A stretch of 64,000 nt of DNA from the NCBI RefSeq assembly GCF_005503555.1, contig NZ_SCNG01000006.1, positions 124,001 to 188,000 of the forward strand. The letters are read 5' to 3'. The position numbers and the translations under genes are program-made. The notes under the pieces were generated by a model that did no database searches, had not been told where the DNA came from, and saw only the letters and a list, made by a program, of their open reading frames with translations. Source of the stretch: Rudaea sp. 3F27F6. GTDB taxonomy: Bacteria > Pseudomonadota > Gammaproteobacteria > Xanthomonadales > Rhodanobacteraceae. Positions 4,813 through 23,572 of the stretch are shown in pieces (position 1 is the first letter of the stretch; each line of letters starts with the position of its first letter).

Positions 4813-4897
<85 letters not shown>

Positions 4898-4942
4898 ACA
4901 GTCAGTCCAGAGCAGTCCAACGACATCTGGAAGCTCTCTCGA

Positions 4943-4967
4943 AAGCCCGCTCTCATGCGGGTTTTTT
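4943..4967 (+). terminator. Intrinsic terminator after tRNA-Leu(CAG)
   Basis: The inverted repeat aagcccgc/gcggg is followed by a run of T about 46 bases after the tRNA 3' end. It is placed as the tRNA terminator. Confidence 0.75.
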
Positions 4968-5140
4968 GTTTTCTGGCGCATCTCTCAGCACTACCAGGAA
5001 GCTTCCGTCGCATTGCACGAAATCCGCGTGGATACGTTGCCGCGCTTGCCCTCGCCACTTGTCATTGCAAGCGCGAGTCAGACCTGGGCGTCCCGTCGCT
5101 AGACGCACGCGGCCTGTCCTTCTTCTCGATGCTGCCACCG

Positions 5141-11014: not shown

Positions 11015-11037
11015 TCTGGCGGAGAGAGAGGGATTCG
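11015..11037. repeat. attL: 23-bp copy of the tRNA-Ser 3' end
   Basis: A 23-base direct repeat of 23478-23500, starting tctggcggagag and ending gggattcg. It reproduces the CCA end, acceptor strand and part of the T-arm of tRNA-Ser(GCT). The match stops at 11037, where the following bases differ from the tRNA. This is the left junction of the integrated element. Confidence 0.92.
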
Positions 11038-11466: not shown

Positions 11467-12183
11467 TCAAGAGCGGGGCGAACGAACCCCGCTCAGTTCC
11501 AGACGCTGGGAACGAGCCACCAGCCGATCGGCCAGGTGTTCCAGCAGAACCGCATCGGCACACCGCTCATACCATTCGGGCACCGGCAACGGAGAGGCGA
11601 CGAGCAGGGATTGTGCTCTGGCTTTTTTCGGCCGTTGAGTGAGCACGGCCAGCATCAGGTTCAACGCTTCCGCGTCCAACGGGGTCAAGGCGAAATCATC
11701 CACGATCAGCACATCCTGCCGCGTCCACTCCTTCCAGAACGCCGGCTCTGCTTTCCGGTCCCGCGCTGCCTGCCGCTCCTCCACCAGGCCCCGCAGCGTG
11801 GCATACCGCACGCGCCGGCCCGCCCGCAGGGCCTGGTTCCCCAGGGCGCACAACAGCCAGGTTTTTCCCGTGCGGACGGGGCCCGTAAACAGCATGTGGT
11901 GCCCCTGAGTGAGCCACGTGCCGGATTTCCAGCCGTCCAGCACCGTGGGGGACAATCCCCCGCCGGTGCCGGTCTCCTCCAGGCAGGCCGCCTGCGGCAA
12001 TCGGGCCCGGAGACAGGCCCGCGCCAGACGTCGGCCCTGCCGGCCCTGCTCCTGGGCCTCCAGCAACACGTGAAGGGTGGCCTCTCCGGGCGCGGCCACC
12101 TCGGGCGACAGGTGGGTCCAGGCCTGGGCCATGTCCGACAAACGCAGACGGCGCAGGCGATCGGCTTGCGTTCCGGTCAACAT
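11467..12183 (-). CDS. istB: IS21-family ATP-binding helper protein IstB
   Basis: A 238-residue AAA+ ATPase (DnaC-like) that helps the IstA transposase choose and capture target DNA. Walker A is GPVRTGKT, Walker B is VLIVDDFAL, and the C-terminal LLEHLADRLVARSQRLELSG is typical. Length is normal for IstB. The ATG at 12183 overlaps the istA stop by seven bases, so translation is probably coupled. The longer frame extending to 12612 in this phase is shadow of istA. Confidence 0.92.
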   Translation of the reverse strand: MLTGTQADRLRRLRLSDMAQAWTHLSPEVAAPGEATLHVLLEAQEQGRQGRRLARACLRARLPQAACLEETGTGGGLSPTVLDGWKSGTWLTQGHHMLFTGPVRTGKTWLLCALGNQALRAGRRVRYATLRGLVEERQAARDRKAEPAFWKEWTRQDVLIVDDFALTPLDAEALNLMLAVLTQRPKKARAQSLLVASPLPVPEWYERCADAVLLEHLADRLVARSQRLELSGVRSPRS

Positions 12184-13685
12184 ACCGCCTCCCCCGCCGC
12201 CTGGCGGTAGAACTCCGGACCGCGCAGCGCGGGGCGGACGGGCGGATCGAGTGCGGCCACGATCGCCCGCAACGCCCCGATCGACCGGCTGCGTTGCGCG
12301 AGGGCTTGCGCGGCCGCCCGCTCCAGCGTCACCGCCCCATGCCGGTGGGCCAAGCCCCGCATGCTTTGGACTGCGGGCATGCCCTGAAGCGGGATCTCCT
12401 GGGCGAAATGGTGGGCGGCCAGCGACCGGGTGGCGGGGCCGATGGTGTCCGCCCAGGCCAGCAAGGTGGCCGGCGACTGGCCGACTTGGGACCGATGGGA
12501 TTCGGGCAGATGGGCGATGTCGGTCGTGCGCCCGCCGCGCACCGTACTCGCCGCATGATCGGCCACACACTGGCCCTCGCAGAACAACCGCACGCGGTCC
12601 GCCACCCGGCACGGCTCGACGGGTTTTCCCGCCCAGGTGTGCGGCACACTGTAGTAGTGCTTACCCACGCAGACGTGGTAGTCCGGCGGCACGGTCTGCG
12701 CGCCGCCCCAGGACGCATAGGCGAACGGTGTGGCGGGCAACGGCACCAGTGCCGCCCGCTCGGTGGCCTCGAACACCGCCCGCCGAGTCCCGGCGCGCTT
12801 CTGGAACGGACGCTCATTGAGCCGGGTCAAGAGTTCGGCGACCGCCGCGTTGGCTTCGGCCAGCGAGAAAAACACGCGGCGGCGCAACCGGGCCAAAATC
12901 TGCCGCTGGACCATCAAGACGGCACCCTCTACCGCCCCTTTGTCGCGGGGGTGGCCGGGGCGCGCGGGCAGCACGGCCATGCCGTAGTGCCGGGCGAAAT
13001 CCAGATAGTTGCGCTGGATCGTCGGGTCGCGTCCTGCCTTGGTGACGGCCGCCTTCAGGTTGTCGGGGACCAGCATGCGCGGAGCCCCACCGAAGAACGC
13101 CAGCATGCGGACATGGGCGTCGAGAAAATCCGGCACGCTTTGGCTGGCGCAGCCGCAGGCAAAGATGTAGTTCGATGCGGGCAAGACCGCTACGAAGATT
13201 TCGATGGGCACCCGCTCTCCGGTTTCCCGGTCCTGATAGCACAGCCGCCGGCCGGAAAAGTCCACGTAGACGCGATCGCCGGGCAGGTGGTGCTGGCGCA
13301 GACTCAGGCCGCGCGGCTGCCCGTAGGCGGCCTGGTTGAGCCGCCGCAGAAACTGGGCATAGGACAACCGTTCCGCCTCCGGGCGCGCCTGTGCATATTC
13401 CTCCCAGAGCAGGCGGCCGGTCACGCCGGGTTCCTCCAACTGCGGCACCAGGGCAGCGAAATCCGGCAGAGGTTTGCGCGCGAGCGGCCGGGGCTGGCGG
13501 AAACAGGCGCTCAGCGCCGAGGCCGGCAGATGGCGCAGGGCCTCCCACGTGTAGCCGCGTTCCCGAATCCGGCGGCGGTATCGGCCCACGGTCGTTTTGG
13601 ATACAGCCAGGGAGGTGGAAACCAGCCGCGCGGACAAGTCGGATGCGGCCAGACGAACCAGGTCAAACAATAAGGGATGATTCAC
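12177..13685 (-). CDS. istA: IS21-family transposase IstA
   Basis: A 502-residue DDE transposase. An N-terminal helix-turn-helix (LVSTSLAVSKTTVGRYRRRI) is followed by the integrase core with catalytic acidic residues at RVYVDFSG, LVPDNLKAAV and DKGAVEGAV, then the Mu-type beta-barrel region. The GTG at 13685 was chosen because gaggag lies eight bases upstream; an in-frame start at 13718 adds 11 residues with no support. All three catalytic segments are intact, so the insertion may still be active. Confidence 0.92.
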   Translation of the reverse strand: MNHPLLFDLVRLAASDLSARLVSTSLAVSKTTVGRYRRRIRERGYTWEALRHLPASALSACFRQPRPLARKPLPDFAALVPQLEEPGVTGRLLWEEYAQARPEAERLSYAQFLRRLNQAAYGQPRGLSLRQHHLPGDRVYVDFSGRRLCYQDRETGERVPIEIFVAVLPASNYIFACGCASQSVPDFLDAHVRMLAFFGGAPRMLVPDNLKAAVTKAGRDPTIQRNYLDFARHYGMAVLPARPGHPRDKGAVEGAVLMVQRQILARLRRRVFFSLAEANAAVAELLTRLNERPFQKRAGTRRAVFEATERAALVPLPATPFAYASWGGAQTVPPDYHVCVGKHYYSVPHTWAGKPVEPCRVADRVRLFCEGQCVADHAASTVRGGRTTDIAHLPESHRSQVGQSPATLLAWADTIGPATRSLAAHHFAQEIPLQGMPAVQSMRGLAHRHGAVTLERAAAQALAQRSRSIGALRAIVAALDPPVRPALRGPEFYRQAAGEAVC

Positions 13686-13769
13686 GGTAAAGCTCCTCAA
13701 GCAAGACGCGGAGCACACACCCGCCCGAGCCGCCCAGCGGGCCGCTTGACAAAAAGGGGGGATGAACCA

Positions 13770-14260
13770 GAATGGCGCCGCGGTGCGTCTACAGTCCGCA
13801 GCATCATCGAAAGGCCCGGGTCTCGATCCCGGGCCTTTCGTCGTTTTGGGGGGAAGAATCGGGGCGGTCGCGTCCTGGGCGGGCGGTCTCCTGAGGCGAA
13901 AACGGGCCTCACCTTAGCCGCAGACCGGGCGCCGTCAAGGCCCCGATTTTTAGGCGGAAACAGCCCTATGGCGAATTGACTTTGGAGCGCCGTTTGTGGA
14001 GAACGGCCCTTCGCAAAACGGCGTCAGAGATGGATTTTCGTAAGGCCGCCGAAAAGGAACCTCCAAAAACCCAAGCGCGCTGCGGCTTCCACAGGGGCAG
14101 AAAGTATACAAATCCCTAAATCCCTTTTTCCGCATCGGCGGCGGCTGGGCACTGTGGGCCTGGACGAAAAAAGGCCGCCATAAAGGCGGCCTTTTCGCAA
14201 AGGTCGCAACTTCCTCGGCTACGCTACGCACGTGCGACGGTCATATAAACCATACGAAGA
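13770..14260. other. Non-coding stretch of the element with two hairpins
   Basis: About 490 bases without a convincing gene. It holds two terminator-like hairpins: 13809-13847 (aaggcccggg/cccgggcctt followed by tcgtcgtttt) and 14167-14197 (aaggccgcc/ggcggcctttt). A 93-codon minus-strand frame (13950-14231) has no ribosome site or recognisable motif. Confidence 0.5.
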
Positions 14261-14333
14261 GCCCCGGGTGGGACTCGAACCCACAACCTCCAGATTGCGA
14301 ATCGTGTGCTCTATCCACTTGAGCTACCGGGGC
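14261..14333 (-). tRNA. tRNA-Arg-like gene with defective anticodon stem
   Basis: A 73-base cloverleaf on the minus strand. Acceptor gccccgg/ccggggc and T-arm gtggg-ttcgagt-cccac are perfect, and the D-arm gctcaagtggatagagc has the A20 typical of tRNA-Arg. The anticodon arm cacga-ttcgcaa-tctgg has two non-pairing positions out of five. The loop reads CGC, an alanine anticodon, inside an Arg-like body. No CCA is encoded and the base at position 73 would be U. Probably a degenerate or specialised element-borne tRNA. Confidence 0.5.
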
Positions 14334-14526: not shown

Positions 14527-17289
14527 CTACATCGCCGATGCCTTCCGTTCTCCCGCCCTTGTCTCCGTGACCGCCGCCCGAAGTTCCTCGGCTTCCCGCG
14601 CCGGCACATAGTCGGCCGGACTGTCGGCGGCCTGGAAGCCCGCCACGGCCCGGTTGGCCCAGGTCAAGGCCGCGGCGCGGTCGCCTCGGCCGGAAGCCAG
14701 CATCGCCTGGGCCAGGCTCCACTTGGCCACGCCATCCTCCCCCGTCAGATACGCTCGGTTTGTTCGCACCCGATTCGGATCGAGCCGGCCCAGCAGTTCG
14801 GCCGCCTCGTCCCAATGTTGGCCGCGCAGGGCGACGATGGCAGCCACGTAGTCGATCATGTCCCCGTATTCGCCTTGGTCGTTCTCATGCTGGTGCGCCA
14901 GAGCCCGCACGTCGGCCACCTCTTTGCGGGCATCGTCCGCCCGGCCCAGACGGGCCCAGACGCCGGCACGGGTCAACCGGGCGGTGAGCACGGCCGGCTC
15001 CCACCCCTCGGCCAACGGCTGATAGAGACGCAAGACCTCCTCGATCGCCCCTTGCTGCTCGCCCCACTTCCCCAATCCGCCTTCAACCGTGGCCAGATTC
15101 GAGAGGGCGTCGATCGTGTCCGTATTGCCTGGGCCGAGCGCCTTCCGGCGGCCATCGCGAACCGCCTCGGCCACCGGCTCCGCTTCACGGTAGCGCTTTT
15201 GGAAGGTCAGGCTCATGACGAGGCGGTGTTGGAAATCCAGCGTGATCGGGTGTTCCGGCCCTTTCTCCCGGGTGTATTGCTCGATGGCGTCGCGGAACAC
15301 CCGATCGGCCTCGGCGTAGCGCTTCAACCGCAATAGGTCCACACCGTAGTTCATTCGCGCCCCGCTTTCCTGCGGGCCGTGTTCGGCGATCGCCCGTTCA
15401 TAACTCGCATGGCTATACGGCAGCGCCGCGGCGGGATCGTGTTGCCGGTCGGAGTAGTAGATGGTCCACAGCGAGTTCAGCGAATAAAACACGCCGGCTC
15501 CGCCGTCCTCGGCCGCGTGCGCGGCCTGCGTCAACGCATCCAGTTCCGGTTTGAACTCCACCTGGTCGTTGCGGGGATCGACGAGCCGCCGGGCCAGCAA
15601 GGCCATACGGGTCTTGAGGGTGGGCGTGGCGGACGGCCCGAGCGCGCGTTCATACAGCGCCGCCGCCTGGGCGTATTGCTGTTCCGTACCGTTCGCGTCG
15701 TTGCGGCTGGCCAGCGCCTTGGCAATCGACTCATGGAGCCGGGCGGCCACCTCGGGGTCCTGGGGGAACGCCGAATCGATGCGGCCGGCGGCGGTCTGGA
15801 TCGCCTCCCCCAGGGACCGCGTGCCCGTGCCGGCCTGGTCGACGTCGGCTTGGCCCAGCACGTCTTTGGTCAAAAACCCGAGCATGGCCCCCGACCCGCG
15901 CGCCTCTTTCTGCGCGGCGGCCGTGGCGGTTCGGGCTTGGACGAAAAGCACCGTGGCGACGACGAAGCCCACGATCAGCGCCGCCCACGCCGTGAGCACC
16001 CACGGCCGGCGGGCACGCGCCGCGGCCCAGCGCCGGGCGGCCTCCTCGGCCTGGGCGCGCTTCACTGCGTCCCGCTCGGCGGCCTGCCGCCGCTCGTCCA
16101 GGGTGCGCAGGCGCACCGCCAGCGTGCGCGCCGCCTCCAGCCGCAGGGCCGGGTTGCCGTTGGCGCAGGCGCCGATGTCCTCGCGCAGCAGCGGATCGGA
16201 AACGTCCGCTTCCCACCCCGCCGACAAGGGGCGCCTCAGGTCGCCGGCCACCAGTTGGAACAGGAGCACGCCCAGGGCGTAAAGGTCGGATTTGACGGTG
16301 GCCGACTGGCCGGCCAAGACCTCGGGCGCGACGTAGAGCGGCGTGCCGGTGAGCGAACCGGTGGCATCGAGGGTCGTGCCGGTTCGGGTGATGCCCAGAG
16401 CGTCCAGGCGCTCCGGTTCGAGCAGGCGCGCGCTGCCGAAATCGACCACGCGGGGGAGCCAGTGGCCCTCCTCTCCGTAGATCAGCAGATTGGTAGGCTT
16501 CAAGTCCTTGTGAAGGACGCCGAGCTCGTGCGCGGCGCCCACGGCGTCGGCCACCTCGGCGAGCCACGCCAGCCGTTCGGCCAGGGGCCAGGATTCCAGC
16601 CCGCCCCGCGCCCCGGCCCAGGTCTCCAGGTCCGGACCGCCGTCGTCGGCCTCCAGGAAATACGGCGCATCTTCGAAATCCCATTCCCGCACGCGCACGA
16701 ACGCGGGCACGTCGCCCAGGCTTTCATACAGCAGCCGGGACAACGTGGCCTCCCGCTTCAACGCGCTCAGGCGGTAGCCGTCCAGGCTGAACTTGAACAC
16801 CCGGGACTCTCCGGTTTTGGTGTGCTGGGCGCGCCAGACCTCCCCATGCTCGGACTGGTCCAAGGCGGCCATCAGGCGCCATTGCGGCCGGCGCGGCACG
16901 GCCTCGCCCGCCCGCAGGGCACGGCCAAGCGGCGCGCGCGGCAGGTGCTTGCCCTCCACCGGGCCCAGGATTCGATAGCCGACGCGGGCCACCGTGGTCA
17001 GCAGGGTTTGTGCCTCGTCGCCCAGGGCGCGGCGCAGTTTGCCGATGGCGTTGGTCAATGCACCTTCGACGACGATGCGGCCCCGCCAGACGTGATCCAA
17101 CAGTTCGTCTTTGGTGACGGTTTCGCCCGCGTGGCGCAGAAGCAACCCGAGCACTTCGAGCGGCTTGCGTTCGAGTTCCGTGGGCACCCCGCCGACGGTC
17201 AGTTCCCATTTGCCTTCATCGAACACCGCCGCGCCCGCGCTCGTGCCGAAACGCCACCGCATCAGCGGCTCCCCCCGATTCTCTGCCAC
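14527..17289 (-). CDS. Winged-helix / Hanks-type Ser-Thr kinase / TPR membrane protein
   Basis: A 920-residue multidomain protein. Residues 18-110 form an OmpR/CadC-type winged helix (RKPLEVLGLLLRHAGETVTK and VARVGYRILGP). Residues 136-400 are a protein kinase: lysine in VFKF (166), catalytic HKDLKPTN (260-267), DFG (283-285), APE (321-323). The glycine loop is degenerate; only HGEVW remains. A coiled basic stretch leads to one membrane span (429-450), then about 450 residues of TPR-like helices, probably periplasmic. DNA-binding, kinase and sensor parts in one chain suggest envelope-to-gene signalling. GTG start with strong aggaggg. It faces a three-gene envelope block at 17484. Confidence 0.88.
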   Translation of the reverse strand: MAENRGEPLMRWRFGTSAGAAVFDEGKWELTVGGVPTELERKPLEVLGLLLRHAGETVTKDELLDHVWRGRIVVEGALTNAIGKLRRALGDEAQTLLTTVARVGYRILGPVEGKHLPRAPLGRALRAGEAVPRRPQWRLMAALDQSEHGEVWRAQHTKTGESRVFKFSLDGYRLSALKREATLSRLLYESLGDVPAFVRVREWDFEDAPYFLEADDGGPDLETWAGARGGLESWPLAERLAWLAEVADAVGAAHELGVLHKDLKPTNLLIYGEEGHWLPRVVDFGSARLLEPERLDALGITRTGTTLDATGSLTGTPLYVAPEVLAGQSATVKSDLYALGVLLFQLVAGDLRRPLSAGWEADVSDPLLREDIGACANGNPALRLEAARTLAVRLRTLDERRQAAERDAVKRAQAEEAARRWAAARARRPWVLTAWAALIVGFVVATVLFVQARTATAAAQKEARGSGAMLGFLTKDVLGQADVDQAGTGTRSLGEAIQTAAGRIDSAFPQDPEVAARLHESIAKALASRNDANGTEQQYAQAAALYERALGPSATPTLKTRMALLARRLVDPRNDQVEFKPELDALTQAAHAAEDGGAGVFYSLNSLWTIYYSDRQHDPAAALPYSHASYERAIAEHGPQESGARMNYGVDLLRLKRYAEADRVFRDAIEQYTREKGPEHPITLDFQHRLVMSLTFQKRYREAEPVAEAVRDGRRKALGPGNTDTIDALSNLATVEGGLGKWGEQQGAIEEVLRLYQPLAEGWEPAVLTARLTRAGVWARLGRADDARKEVADVRALAHQHENDQGEYGDMIDYVAAIVALRGQHWDEAAELLGRLDPNRVRTNRAYLTGEDGVAKWSLAQAMLASGRGDRAAALTWANRAVAGFQAADSPADYVPAREAEELRAAVTETRAGERKASAM

Positions 17290-19129: not shown

Positions 19130-20719
19130 TCAATGCCAGCGAGGACGATGCGCTGTCACGCCGGGATGGGCAGCGCGCGCCGGTGGGGGTGAGCCCGGAA
19201 GAGGCTCGTCCAGCCGGATGGGTCGGGCCGCGGCGGCCGGGCGTGGATCGGACGGAAGCGGATAGCGTTCCCGCCGGCGTTGCTCCCAGCGGTGCCACGC
19301 CTCACGGGCTTCCCGCTCGGTGGTCGCATACGCGGCCATGGCTTGGTCGCTGACCGCTTGGGCCGCCTGGCGTTCGCGCTCCTGGGCTTGCTTCAACCGT
19401 TCGCGCTGCCGGCTGCGGCGTTCGGCCCACTGCCGCCGGCTCGCCCGTTGCCATGCCTTGGGCTGCGGCTCTGCGTGGACACCCTCCCAGGCGCGTTGGG
19501 CCTTGGTGCTTTCGACCATGGCCAAGCCATGCGCATCACGTCGCCGGAGCGGCCGCGTTTGCGCACGCTCCCAAGTCGTTCGGGCTTCCTGCGCGTGCCG
19601 GAGCAGTCCCACGCACCGCGCATCTCGGTGGCAGTGCCGCGCCAGCGCCCGGAAATCGTCCCCTCCCAGCCGGTACTGCTGGGCATACGCCTCCAGTATT
19701 CGCCGACTGGCTTCGTCGAGGTGGGCGAGGTAATCCCGCACAAGATCGGCCTGGATTCTGAGTGTTTCCTCGGAGGCCCTTGCCTGTTCGTTCAATACCT
19801 GACTGCCTGCACCTTGGGCCATGCCCAGCCGGATGGGTGCTTGACCGGTAAATGTCCGAGAGTGTGGCGGCACGTTTTCGCGCCGACGGTCGGCTCGGGC
19901 TTGCGTCAACCCAGACCGCGTGGGGGTGGGCATCAAGCGGCCCTCTCGGTCAGCATGGGCCAAGATGGCCGCCAACCCCGTGCGATTCTGGTGGGCAATG
20001 GCCTCGTTTCCGGCAGCCCGATCGGCAGGCGCACCGCGGCGCCCCAGGGCCGTGGCCGACTTGCCGGCGTGCCGGGTCGCTTGGCGGGTCAAGCGTATGG
20101 CTTGGGCCACGTCGCCCGCATCTTCGGCGCTGCGCGCTTGTGCGGTCAGGGTGCGATGATCCACCCGTTCCGGCCGGCCCGCGCGTTCCAGATGCATATT
20201 GGTCAACGCTGCCACCGCGGCGCGCAGGGCTTCGACCTCCCGGGGACCGGTTTTCCGATCGTCCAGTTCGCGCACCTTCGTGGTGAACCCACCGGCATCG
20301 AGCCGCCGCGTGGAAAGGAGAAGATGAGCGTGGTGGTTTCGATCGTCGCCCCGGGTGTCGGGCGCGTGGATTGCGGCGGTCACCGCCACGCCATAGCGAT
20401 CGACCAGGAAACGGCTCAGATCGGCGGCGAGGGCTTCCCGTTGCTCGGTGGACAGTTCGACCGGTAAGGCGATTTCCAGTTCTCGGGCGACGGCGGCATT
20501 TTTGCGGGTTTCGATCCGCTCGGCGGCGTTCCAGACGGCGGAGAAGTCCGACGCCCAAGCCGGGGCGGATTCGGGGGCGAACGTGTGCACCGAGACGACG
20601 CCTTTTCGATGCCGGTAGTCATGCACCGTGCCGGTTCGGGCGTCCTGGATTTTCGCTCCGGCCCGGTAGGCAGCCGCGGCCGTCGCCGCATGTCCGCGCG
20701 ATCGGCTGAAGACCTTCAA
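19130..20719 (-). CDS. MobA/MobL family relaxase
   Basis: Mobilisation relaxase that nicks the element's oriT and leads single-stranded DNA to a recipient. The N-terminus KVFSRSRGHAATAAAAYRAG is the MobA/MobL signature; the catalytic Tyr lies in this region and the metal-binding histidines in DRNHHAHLLLSTRRL. The C-terminal half is Arg/Gln-rich coiled coil. As read, the gene starts at TTG 20719, but sequence typical of the family's first residues (AIALFHASLKVF) lies in frame upstream, where no ATG or GTG is found. The oriT is 160 bases upstream. Confidence 0.88.
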   Translation of the reverse strand: MKVFSRSRGHAATAAAAYRAGAKIQDARTGTVHDYRHRKGVVSVHTFAPESAPAWASDFSAVWNAAERIETRKNAAVARELEIALPVELSTEQREALAADLSRFLVDRYGVAVTAAIHAPDTRGDDRNHHAHLLLSTRRLDAGGFTTKVRELDDRKTGPREVEALRAAVAALTNMHLERAGRPERVDHRTLTAQARSAEDAGDVAQAIRLTRQATRHAGKSATALGRRGAPADRAAGNEAIAHQNRTGLAAILAHADREGRLMPTPTRSGLTQARADRRRENVPPHSRTFTGQAPIRLGMAQGAGSQVLNEQARASEETLRIQADLVRDYLAHLDEASRRILEAYAQQYRLGGDDFRALARHCHRDARCVGLLRHAQEARTTWERAQTRPLRRRDAHGLAMVESTKAQRAWEGVHAEPQPKAWQRASRRQWAERRSRQRERLKQAQERERQAAQAVSDQAMAAYATTEREAREAWHRWEQRRRERYPLPSDPRPAAAARPIRLDEPLPGSPPPARAAHPGVTAHRPRWH

Positions 20720-20877
20720 GGAAGCATGAAACAGGGCGATGGCGGGCGCTCCGGTGGGGCTGCTTTCCAGCCTATCGGGTGCCGGCGAATCGGCAAGGCC
20801 TCAGAGACGCGAGAGATCAGGAAAGCCCAGGGGCGGCGGCGCGCAGCGCCGGGGTCTGGGGCGGAGCCCCAGCGCAC

Positions 20878-20904
20878 GCAAACCGAAGGTTTGCCTAAGT
20901 GCGC
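20878..20904. other. Putative oriT of RSF1010/R1162 type
   Basis: A perfect 7-bp inverted repeat with GAA loop, gcaaaccgaaggtttgc (20878-20894), is followed at once by ctaagtgcgc (20895-20904). The IncQ oriT has the same order: an inverted repeat with GAA loop, then the nic core taagtgcgc. It sits between the relaxase start and the element tRNA, as usual for oriT. A further GC hairpin (ggggtctggggcggagcccc, near 20851-20870) precedes it. Matching of a MobA-type relaxase with this core supports the call. Confidence 0.7.
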
Positions 20905-21017: not shown

Positions 21018-21090
21018 GCAGGTGTAGCTCAGTTGGTAGAGCGGAGGTGTGATAAACCTCGCGTCGACGGTTCGATTCCGTTCGCCTGCA
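21018..21090 (+). tRNA. tRNA-Ile(GAT), element-borne
   Basis: A 73-base cloverleaf. Acceptor gcaggtg/cgcctgc with one T-G pair, D-arm gctcagttggtagagc, anticodon stem gaggt/acctc closing gtgataa (anticodon GAT), T-arm gacgg-ttcgatt-ccgtt, discriminator A. CCA is not encoded, unlike the chromosomal tRNAs here except the defective one at 14261. The body is not the usual rRNA-operon tRNA-Ile. Confidence 0.8.
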
Positions 21091-21195
21091 CTTTGTGTTA
21101 GACTACTTGCACACAATCAGGCAGCTGCATGGAGCCAATGGCTCTGTGTTTTATCAGCCCCTAGCCCAGTGGGGGTTTGCCGAATAGATTGGGAG

Positions 21196-21307: not shown

Positions 21308-21643
21308 ATGCCTTGCCCCGACGAAATCCGCCCGCTGCTCCACGAACTCCTCTACGTCATCGAGCGCACCCAGCGCGTCTATCGCTCTACCTTCGTTCAC
21401 GCCCCGCCACCCGATCGCGGTGATGGTTTCGCGCGCCTGATCGATCTGGCTGACCGAACGGCTCATCAGACCCGCACGGTCCTGGATGCGGACAGCGCGG
21501 CCCGGAGCCCCGCCTACGAGTTCCGGCCCTTTGGGCCGTTCCTGGGTCCGACACTGGCCCAACGCATGCGGGCTCGGCGCATGGCCAGCCCTCCGCCTAT
21601 GCCGCCGCCCTCGTCGCCGCGCCCTGGCCGGAGCCTCCATTGA
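21308..21643 (+). CDS. Hypothetical protein next to TraD-like gene
   Basis: A 111-residue protein (MPCPDEIRPLLHELLYVIER at its start). The first 70 residues look helical; the last 35 are Pro/Arg/Ser-rich and may be unstructured. No signal peptide, membrane span or recognised family. The following gene begins inside its stop codon (TTGA), so both are probably one transcript. Position beside integrase, TraD-like and mob genes suggests an accessory role in transfer or maintenance, which is inference only. No clear ribosome site before the ATG. Confidence 0.5.
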   Translation: MPCPDEIRPLLHELLYVIERTQRVYRSTFVHAPPPDRGDGFARLIDLADRTAHQTRTVLDADSAARSPAYEFRPFGPFLGPTLAQRMRARRMASPPPMPPPSSPRPGRSLH

Positions 21644-21906
21644 GCGCGCCGGATGAGGGAACGGACCGTCTGGCCGATCAGGTGACCAAGGCCGCCGAGC
21701 GTCTGGGGCAACTGCGCGCCCGGCAACTGCTGCGGCAGATGCGCATCGACACGCGGGCCCGGGAACAGGCGCGGCGGGAGGCTCATCGGCGCCGGCTGGA
21801 AATCGGCGCGGCCGTGTTGGAAGCCGGGTTCGATCTACCGGCCGCACACATCGTCGCTCGTCTGCGCCATTCGCTGGCGTTCGAACCCGGAACCTCAGCC
21901 CCGTGA
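21640..21906 (+). CDS. TraD/MobC-like conjugal transfer accessory protein
   Basis: An 88-residue, strongly helical and basic protein. The pattern AAERLGQLRARQLLRQMRID followed by RREAHRRRLEIGAAVLEAGF matches the small conjugal-transfer TraD proteins coded beside MobA/MobL relaxases, which end in R-x-x-x-L-G-x-x-V-x-x-A-G. Such proteins help relaxosome formation. TTG start overlapping the upstream stop by four bases. It is convergent with the integrase gene, 16 bases away. Confidence 0.65.
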   Translation: MSAPDEGTDRLADQVTKAAERLGQLRARQLLRQMRIDTRAREQARREAHRRRLEIGAAVLEAGFDLPAAHIVARLRHSLAFEPGTSAP

Positions 21907-21922: not shown

Positions 21923-23392
21923 CTAGAGGACGCGGGCGATCGCGTCCAGGTCGATCCCCTCGAACGCCAGCACCCGCACGCCCACCGTGGTGAACGGCCC
22001 CGTGCCGACGCCGTGGAGCAACTCGGGCATCGACAGCGGACGGCTATAGACCGCCCGGTGCTCGTCGTCGATCTCGTGCCCGACGTATTGCGCCCGCGCC
22101 TCGGCCGCCATGCCCGCGGCCTGCAGATGCTCAATGGCGGTTCTCCGCAACGAATGAAAGCCCACCTTGGGGCCCTTTTTCCGCGAAGACGGGGGAAGCT
22201 CGACTTTGATGCCCAACGCGACCAGATACCGGCCAAAAGCCGAACTCAGCCAGCCGCCCAGGCCGTTCGCGGCCCCCGGCTGGACACCGGGCAAGAGCCG
22301 GGTTTCCCCCGCGGCCCGCAGCGCGGCCACGCGATCGCGCAAGCCGAGCCGGATCAAATCCGGGTGAACCGGCACCTCGCGGATGCTCACCTCGTTCTTG
22401 AGGCTCTGCCCTTCGCCCTCATCCGTGATCCGCACGCACCAGAGGCCGTGGACGTCCACGAAATCCACCAGGGCGATCTGCCCCACTTCGCTCACCCGGG
22501 CCCCCAGATAGAGCCCCAGGACGGCTCCCCATCGGGTCTTGTCGTTGAGGCGGGCCAACGCATCCGGGGAATAGATTTTCTGGAGTTCCTGGGGCGTGAA
22601 CGAGCGGAAGCCGAGTTTCTTCCGCTGCCGTTTTTCCCGCGCCAGATAGACGACGTGCCGGGCACCGGGGTTGTCGTCCCGGTCAAAGTGGTAGTAACCC
22701 GCCCCCTTGGCCCAGAGAAAGAATGCGGTCAAGTAAGACCCCTTATTGGTGAGGGTCGGCGTCGCGAGGCCGTTGCCGCGCAATGCAAGAAACCATTCGC
22801 TCACGTCCGTGCGGGTCACTTCGGACAGCGGCGCCTTCACCCCTTTCCAGGTGGCGAACCCATTCACGGCCGCCATTTTCTGGGTCAGGGTCTTGCGCGG
22901 CATCGTCGCCGGATCGAGGGTCAGCCGGTATTTTTGCGCCGCCTCGCCCAAGGCGATCGCCTTCACCTTGACCGCCGGGGGCGCCGCGGGGGACACGGCC
23001 ACCACCGGCTGCGCCGTCATCAGGCGCAATGCAGCCAACAGGTCGGCGTTGTCCTGGGGAGTACCGTCGCTCTTGGCCTTGAGGACCCGCCCCGTCAGCG
23101 GGTCGGCTTCGTATTCAAAGCGCCGAGTTTCTCCGCGTTCGACCTCCGCAAGGATGCGGTCCACGGAAGGAATCGGCGAACGCGGCATGAGGGCATCTCG
23201 GGCAGCGACGAAGAGCGCAGCATAACGCACCGTCAGCGTGTAGGCGCGCACCCGCGCCGCCTGCGGGCAGGTGGTCTGAAGGCTGCGCTTCACCACGCGC
23301 AGACCGAGTGCCGATTGGAGAACAGCCGGAACCCGAAGACGAAAATGCCAGGTGCCGGACGAGTGGCGAATCACATGATGAGCCAGGCGCAT
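21923..23392 (-). CDS. Tyrosine site-specific integrase of the element
   Basis: A 489-residue phage-type integrase with a DUF6538-like N-terminus (HHVIRHSSGTWHFRLRVPAVL), a SAM-like core-binding domain (about 150-245) and a C-terminal catalytic domain. The six residues of the active site are all visible, numbered from this start: Arg in GARVSEVG (299), Lys in SLKNEV (332), HxxR in HSLRRT (413/416), His in VGHEID (439) and Tyr in AVYSRP (449). It lies 88 bases from tRNA-Ser, the usual place for the integrase that inserted there. ATG 23392 was chosen; an in-frame TTG at 23410 adds six residues. Confidence 0.92.
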   Translation of the reverse strand: MRLAHHVIRHSSGTWHFRLRVPAVLQSALGLRVVKRSLQTTCPQAARVRAYTLTVRYAALFVAARDALMPRSPIPSVDRILAEVERGETRRFEYEADPLTGRVLKAKSDGTPQDNADLLAALRLMTAQPVVAVSPAAPPAVKVKAIALGEAAQKYRLTLDPATMPRKTLTQKMAAVNGFATWKGVKAPLSEVTRTDVSEWFLALRGNGLATPTLTNKGSYLTAFFLWAKGAGYYHFDRDDNPGARHVVYLAREKRQRKKLGFRSFTPQELQKIYSPDALARLNDKTRWGAVLGLYLGARVSEVGQIALVDFVDVHGLWCVRITDEGEGQSLKNEVSIREVPVHPDLIRLGLRDRVAALRAAGETRLLPGVQPGAANGLGGWLSSAFGRYLVALGIKVELPPSSRKKGPKVGFHSLRRTAIEHLQAAGMAAEARAQYVGHEIDDEHRAVYSRPLSMPELLHGVGTGPFTTVGVRVLAFEGIDLDAIARVL

Positions 23393-23446
23393 GCGGTCGG
23401 AAGGGTCCAACCGATGGGTCCAACGCCTCTTAGCCGTAAAAACGAC

Positions 23447-23477: not shown

Positions 23478-23500
23478 TCTGGCGGAGAGAGAGGGATTCG
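23478..23500. repeat. attR: 23-bp repeat within tRNA-Ser(GCT)
   Basis: Identical over 23 bases to 11015-11037. It covers the encoded CCA, the acceptor 3' strand and part of the T-arm, so integration leaves the tRNA intact. Confidence 0.92.
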
Positions 23501-23572
23501 AACCCTCGATAGAGCTTTTGACCCTATACTCCCTTAGCAGGGGAGCCCCTTCGGCCTCTCGGGCATCTCTCC
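23480..23572 (-). tRNA. tRNA-Ser(GCT)
   Basis: A 93-base class II tRNA with encoded CCA: acceptor ggagaga/tctctcc, anticodon stem ctccc/gggag with loop ctgctaa (GCT), long variable arm, T-loop ttcgaat. It follows csrA on the same strand, the common gammaproteobacterial order csrA-tRNA-Ser. It is the insertion target of the element. Confidence 0.96.

Follow-up and report, generated by a model that had tools for sequence, protein, structure and literature searches.

The window analysed here, i.e., the whole stretch of 64,000 nucleotides from Rudaea sp. 3F27F6, harbors an integrated element of 12,463 bp that is bounded by a 23-bp direct repeat. One copy of this attachment-site repeat (23478..23500) is located at the 3' end of a tRNA-Ser(gct) gene (23480..23572, minus strand), which is the integration target, and the identical copy marks the far end of the element (11015..11037). 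In L135, a locus from the same genus, the site is empty and the sequence left of position 11015 runs straight into the tRNA-Ser gene at the matching base. In another genome of the same genus (L142), an integrase with 52% identity is encoded at this tRNA, and in three related loci a homologous integrase is encoded directly beside a tRNA gene, namely tRNA-Gln in L113 and tRNA-Ser in L122 and L125. The integrase of the window is a tyrosine integrase with an N-terminal DUF6538 domain (21923..23410, minus strand; PF20172; phrog_1 integrase, E 9e-24). Apart from this enzyme, the element contains an IS21-type istB/istA pair (11467..13718, minus strand; PF01695, rve, Mu-transpos_C_2), a cargo encoding a winged-helix protein, a Ser/Thr kinase and a TPR protein (14527..17289, minus strand), a tRNA-Ala(cgc) gene as further cargo next to the kinase gene (14259..14333, minus strand), a relaxase gene, a putative origin of transfer (oriT), a tRNA-Ile gene and two small ORFs. 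The matches of the kinase in PADLOC comprise the generic kinase domain only and no defence function is claimed for it.

On the plus strand, the element encodes a TraD-like relaxosome accessory protein (21640..21906), which aligns with four homologues that all match PF06412 TraD, two of them above the cut-off. As the window protein has no credible Pfam match itself, its TraD-like identity rests on the alignment and on the shared position. Upstream of this gene lies a small conserved ORF of 111 amino acids (21308..21643, plus strand), which gave no credible Pfam match; L113 and L119 carry homologues of it in an identical order. No coupling protein and no mating pore were detected among the element proteins. 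With its integrase, defined ends, own relaxase and predicted oriT, and with coupling protein and pore lacking, the element is by its gene content a canonical integrative mobilizable element. Known elements of this type likewise combine a tyrosine integrase, a tRNA 3'-end as target and their own relaxase and do without coupling protein and pore, and in a review from 2017 it was stated that none were known from Proteobacteria (PMC5704250).

The relaxase gene (19130..20740, minus strand) encodes 536 amino acids counted from a proposed ATC start and is the only gene for a MobA/MobL relaxase in the genome (MOBQ; Pfam PF03389, E 1.7e-46). The protein can be aligned to the domains of known structure from NES (PDB 4HT4) and R1162 MobA (PDB 2NS6). 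The motif-I tyrosine is residue 25 counted from the ATC, and the protein also has the E-x-E and histidine motifs; Tyr25 is also found in R1162 MobA and the MOBQ4 relaxases, for which the roles of the residues have been described (PMC6856555). About 140 bp upstream of the gene and on the opposite strand lies a perfect inverted repeat with 7-bp stem, GCAAACC and GGTTTGC around a GAA loop (20878..20894, plus strand), followed by a single C as spacer (20895) and the nic core TAAGTGCGC (20896..20904, plus strand). A sequence-only reading of this DNA had placed a repeat with GAA loop and adjoining core at 20878-20904, next to a MobA/MobL relaxase, and the coordinates proved to be exact and the neighbour to be present. 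The 9-mer agrees exactly with the core of NWACCNNTAAGTGCGCCCTYNN, a published consensus for MOBQ oriT sites (PMC3832669). After TAAGTGCG the window reads CTATT versus CCCTY in the consensus, which was counted against an interpretation as oriT. As the outer arm GCGCAC (20872..20877, plus strand) is complementary to GTGCGC at 20899-20904, a longer hairpin that includes the core is possible, and the DNA fold of this extended hairpin has a predicted energy of -14 kcal/mol with a z of -5.0.

The sequence-only reading had itself raised the objection that such a motif might be common by chance, in which case the window would merely show a fortuitous repeat beside an unrelated relaxase. The core by itself is indeed common, with 18 copies of TAAGTGCGC in the 5.7-Mb genome. 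However, repeat plus core occurs only once in the genome with up to three mismatches allowed, and the arrangement is conserved at homologous relaxases. When the window was shuffled 200 times by dinucleotides, the 9-mer occurred on average 0.34 times per shuffle and never had a stem of 6 bp or more before it. A chance origin was rejected on these grounds and has, in our view, a negligible probability.

Homologous relaxases from several phyla have the same architecture upstream, with a repeat, usually with a GCA or GAA loop, a spacer of 0-2 nt and the core. If sites were taken without asking for a repeat, i.e., as all exact copies of AAGTGCGC that lie on the strand opposite to a relaxase and no more than 400 bp upstream of it, the core was adjoined by a perfect stem of 6 bp or more in 49 of 54 sites, a set that includes near-copies, so that 49 is not the number of independent cases. 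The arms differ from those of the window at related relaxases, with 35 distinct arm sequences in 94 loci, and since they vary so widely it is the pairing rather than the sequence that is kept. The outer arm is complementary in at least five of six bases in 28 of the 45 non-redundant sites. Within the order, the site is present in 17 of 18 related chromosomal loci, some of them with a variant core, e.g., TAGATGCGC. Whole loci were scanned for this, whereby no site was found in L113, and in seven loci the site is located 2-6 kb from the relaxase gene with other genes in between. This spacing bears on the possibility that the hairpin works as RNA, i.e., that the relaxase transcript has an attenuator, a terminator or a regulatory leader here. 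In the window the hairpin lies within the relaxase leader and folds well, but a distance of several kilobases with intervening genes, as in several relatives, is unexpected for a leader structure; moreover, no T-run follows the hairpin on either strand, it is absent from the terminator-like sites found and it has no Rfam match. A terminator or leader is thus unsupported and we consider a function as RNA to be very improbable. The hairpin is almost certainly a MOBQ oriT, i.e., the predicted site at which the relaxase cuts to start conjugative transfer. The location of this oriT on a chromosomal element, as had been claimed from the sequence, is corroborated by the comparison with homologous relaxases and by the defined element ends.

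Over 32 bp, sites on plasmids of Paracoccus and Aeromonas are about 91-94% identical to that of the window. A 4.9 kb Paracoccus plasmid typed as non-mobilizable (L130; NZ_CP067231.1, 113-144) carries a nearly identical oriT; it has no annotated relaxase and may be mobilized in trans.

The site had been described as RSF1010-type, with agreement in loop, core and arm length. For the comparison with IncQ1 (RSF1010/R1162) the site of pSRC15 (NC_013104) was used. Loop and core do agree: pSRC15 has a GAA loop and the TAAGTGCGC core right after the repeat, it encodes a MobA/MobL relaxase with Tyr25, and its layout is the same, with the relaxase on the minus strand and, to the right of it, the oriT on the plus strand, about 100 bp from the relaxase start. 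Arm length does not agree, as pSRC15 has 10-bp arms with one mismatch and no spacer versus 7 bp and a 1-nt spacer in the window. It also differs in the bases after the core and lacks an outer arm immediately adjoining the stem. Furthermore, RSF1010 is a replicating plasmid with MobB/MobC, in contrast to the TraD-like protein encoded here. In a relaxase tree of 64 sequences rooted on RSF1010 MobA, which covers relaxases other than those of MOBQ4, the window relaxase groups with those of the Rhodanobacteraceae loci L114 and L115 (90% SH-aLRT), and RSF1010 MobA is a distant outgroup on a very long branch, far from the window relaxase. This long branch and this grouping argue for a site of MOBQ class and not for an IncQ origin. 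The label is therefore appropriate as far as the MOBQ class is concerned, whereas arm length, spacing, outer arm, the bases after the core and the distant relaxase speak against IncQ proper, and an oriT of the RSF1010/IncQ1 type in the strict sense (MOBQ11) was rejected. The site probably works like the RSF1010 oriT.

Cryptic chromosomal origins used by the Mob proteins of R1162 were reportedly described by Meyer in 2009 in J Bacteriol 191:1574. These, too, are reported to be RSF1010-like transfer origins in a bacterial chromosome; in contrast to the element in the window, which has its own relaxase, they are reportedly used in trans by the relaxase of a plasmid. The MOBQ4 plasmids resemble the element in a small accessory gene beside the oriT and opposite to mobA and in a MOBQ relaxase with Tyr25, but they are small and replicating and encode their own MobC without homology to other accessory proteins (PMC6856555). 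For the Paracoccus plasmids pHAE1, pMARC3 and pMOS6 an oriT with TAAGTGCGC or TAAGTGGGC core was predicted upstream of mobA, and pMARC3 and pMOS6 carry a divergent mobC; unlike the element, these are non-integrated plasmids (PMC3832669).

Taken together, the motif very probably serves as oriT for the 12,463-bp element at the 3' end of tRNA-Ser(gct), a canonical integrative mobilizable element. We infer that such an element would be excised as a circle by the DUF6538 tyrosine integrase, and that the hairpin would be bound by the MOBQ relaxase, aided by the TraD-like protein. The plus strand would then be nicked via Tyr25 at a position predicted to lie within TAAGTGCGC, with the relaxase staying on the 5' end. 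The coupling protein and mating pore of another element in the cell could carry the strand to a recipient, in which it would be closed and integrated at tRNA-Ser. Against this scenario stand the IS21 insertion in the element and the absence of a direct sign of recent excision from the data. A potential helper is at hand in the same genome. Members of the coupling-protein family were found only on contig C14 and, weakly and below the cut-off, on C9. C14 (L189, G000:C14:195001-215000) encodes a coupling protein, VirB4-, VirB11- and TrbL-like proteins, RepA and ParAB, a gene set that indicates the presence of a conjugative plasmid or element; its own relaxase is VirD2-like with DUF3363. This conjugative system could help the transfer of the element. 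With this analysis, a probable cut site and the ends are defined for an integrated relaxase-bearing element that has many relatives in Xanthomonadales, and as the location of the site is known, transfer becomes directly testable.

An oriT that is well conserved and belongs to a known class, on an element whose ends are newly defined, is ordinary in kind and useful in detail; the unusual features belong to the relaxase gene and its relatives, foremost a rare start codon, and it is the start codons that are the surprise. The relaxase frame of the window is open to position 20800, and the 20 open codons that precede an ATC (20738..20740, minus strand) include no ATG, GTG or TTG. This ATC directly precedes the conserved A-[IL]-[FY]-H and has a GGAG (20749-20752) 8 nt upstream, and translation of the relaxase probably starts here. 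Use of the first standard start, TTG at 20719, would remove the conserved N-terminal residues. With no ATG, GTG or TTG at the conserved N-terminus, the relaxase could be poorly expressed or dead, and the site could be a former oriT on a degenerate element that has lost the start codon of its relaxase and can move only with the help of a relaxase supplied in trans. However, the frame is free of stops over the full length of the relatives (536 amino acids), and ATC, ATT or CTG occupies the same codon in other intact relaxases. Furthermore, close sisters swap the start codon, ATC in L113 versus TTG in L150 and ATG in L114 versus CTG in L115, and dN is well below dS over the gene (0.083 versus 0.293 for L113/L150 and 0.154 versus 0.934 for L114/L115). 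We therefore regard a degenerate relic as unlikely.

Of the MOBQ relaxases examined from Rhodanobacteraceae, roughly half have no standard start codon at this position. Besides that of the window, these include nine relatives: ATC in L113, L116, L128, L006, L156 and L151, ATT in L119, CTG in L115 and GTC in L120. For this comparison the start codons of the window and of L151 were placed by hand and L153 was taken as a duplicate of L006. In six of the nine (L113, L115, L119, L120, L006, L151), as in the window, there is no in-frame upstream ATG, GTG or TTG. L116, L128 and L156 have an upstream in-frame standard start, so that an N-terminal extension is possible for these three. The gene in L120 also contains an internal stop, as found in the genome search, and this relaxase may be dead. 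All 26 relaxases examined from the rest of the order have ATG at this position. ATC is also found at the start position of two rhizobial relaxases (L054 and L062). If the start codons are placed on the tree, its starred branches require six or more changes of state. It is an even call whether the relaxases of a family of chromosomal MOBQ elements in Rhodanobacteraceae use weak near-cognate starts, above all AUC but also AUU and CUG, as a built-in translational throttle on transfer, which would have arisen or been lost several times and be missed by standard gene callers. In a limited literature search, no paper on near-cognate starts of relaxases was found. Initiation at AUC that recurs in this way would, if confirmed, be rare, and it would provide a simple means to keep a DNA-cutting enzyme scarce.

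In four of the related loci, defence-model matches are located between the oriT and mobA: OLD/Gabija-like in L114, Lamassu LmuA and LmuB in L115, PD-Lambda-5 in L116, and QatC and RmrA-like in L121. L114 and L115 encode sister relaxases and carry different defence genes in this slot. The slot of the window element itself is empty. As some related elements carry phage-defence genes in this slot, it is plausible that defence systems spread by way of these elements.

On the other side of the oriT, the element carries a tRNA-Ile(gat) gene (21018..21091, plus strand) and, downstream of it, a conserved stretch of 45 nt (21151..21195, plus strand) that is common to four other loci. The stretch can form an H-type pseudoknot with stems at columns 8-11/22-25 and 15-20/38-43 of the alignment, with one covarying pair among only five sequences. 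It has no Rfam match, and no further copies were found in 369 genomes of the class and in 23 related loci. The tRNA gene together with the 45-nt stretch is found on mobile DNA in the window (21018-21195), in L201, in L198 (4995-5214), in L203 (about 4850-5043) and in L199 (342-455). In genome G503 (L202) the pair likewise adjoins a MOBQ relaxase; the other copies are on two plasmids and one viral contig. If the strand enters as in RSF1010, a polarity that we assume, tRNA-Ile and stretch presumably lie on the leading side of the oriT.
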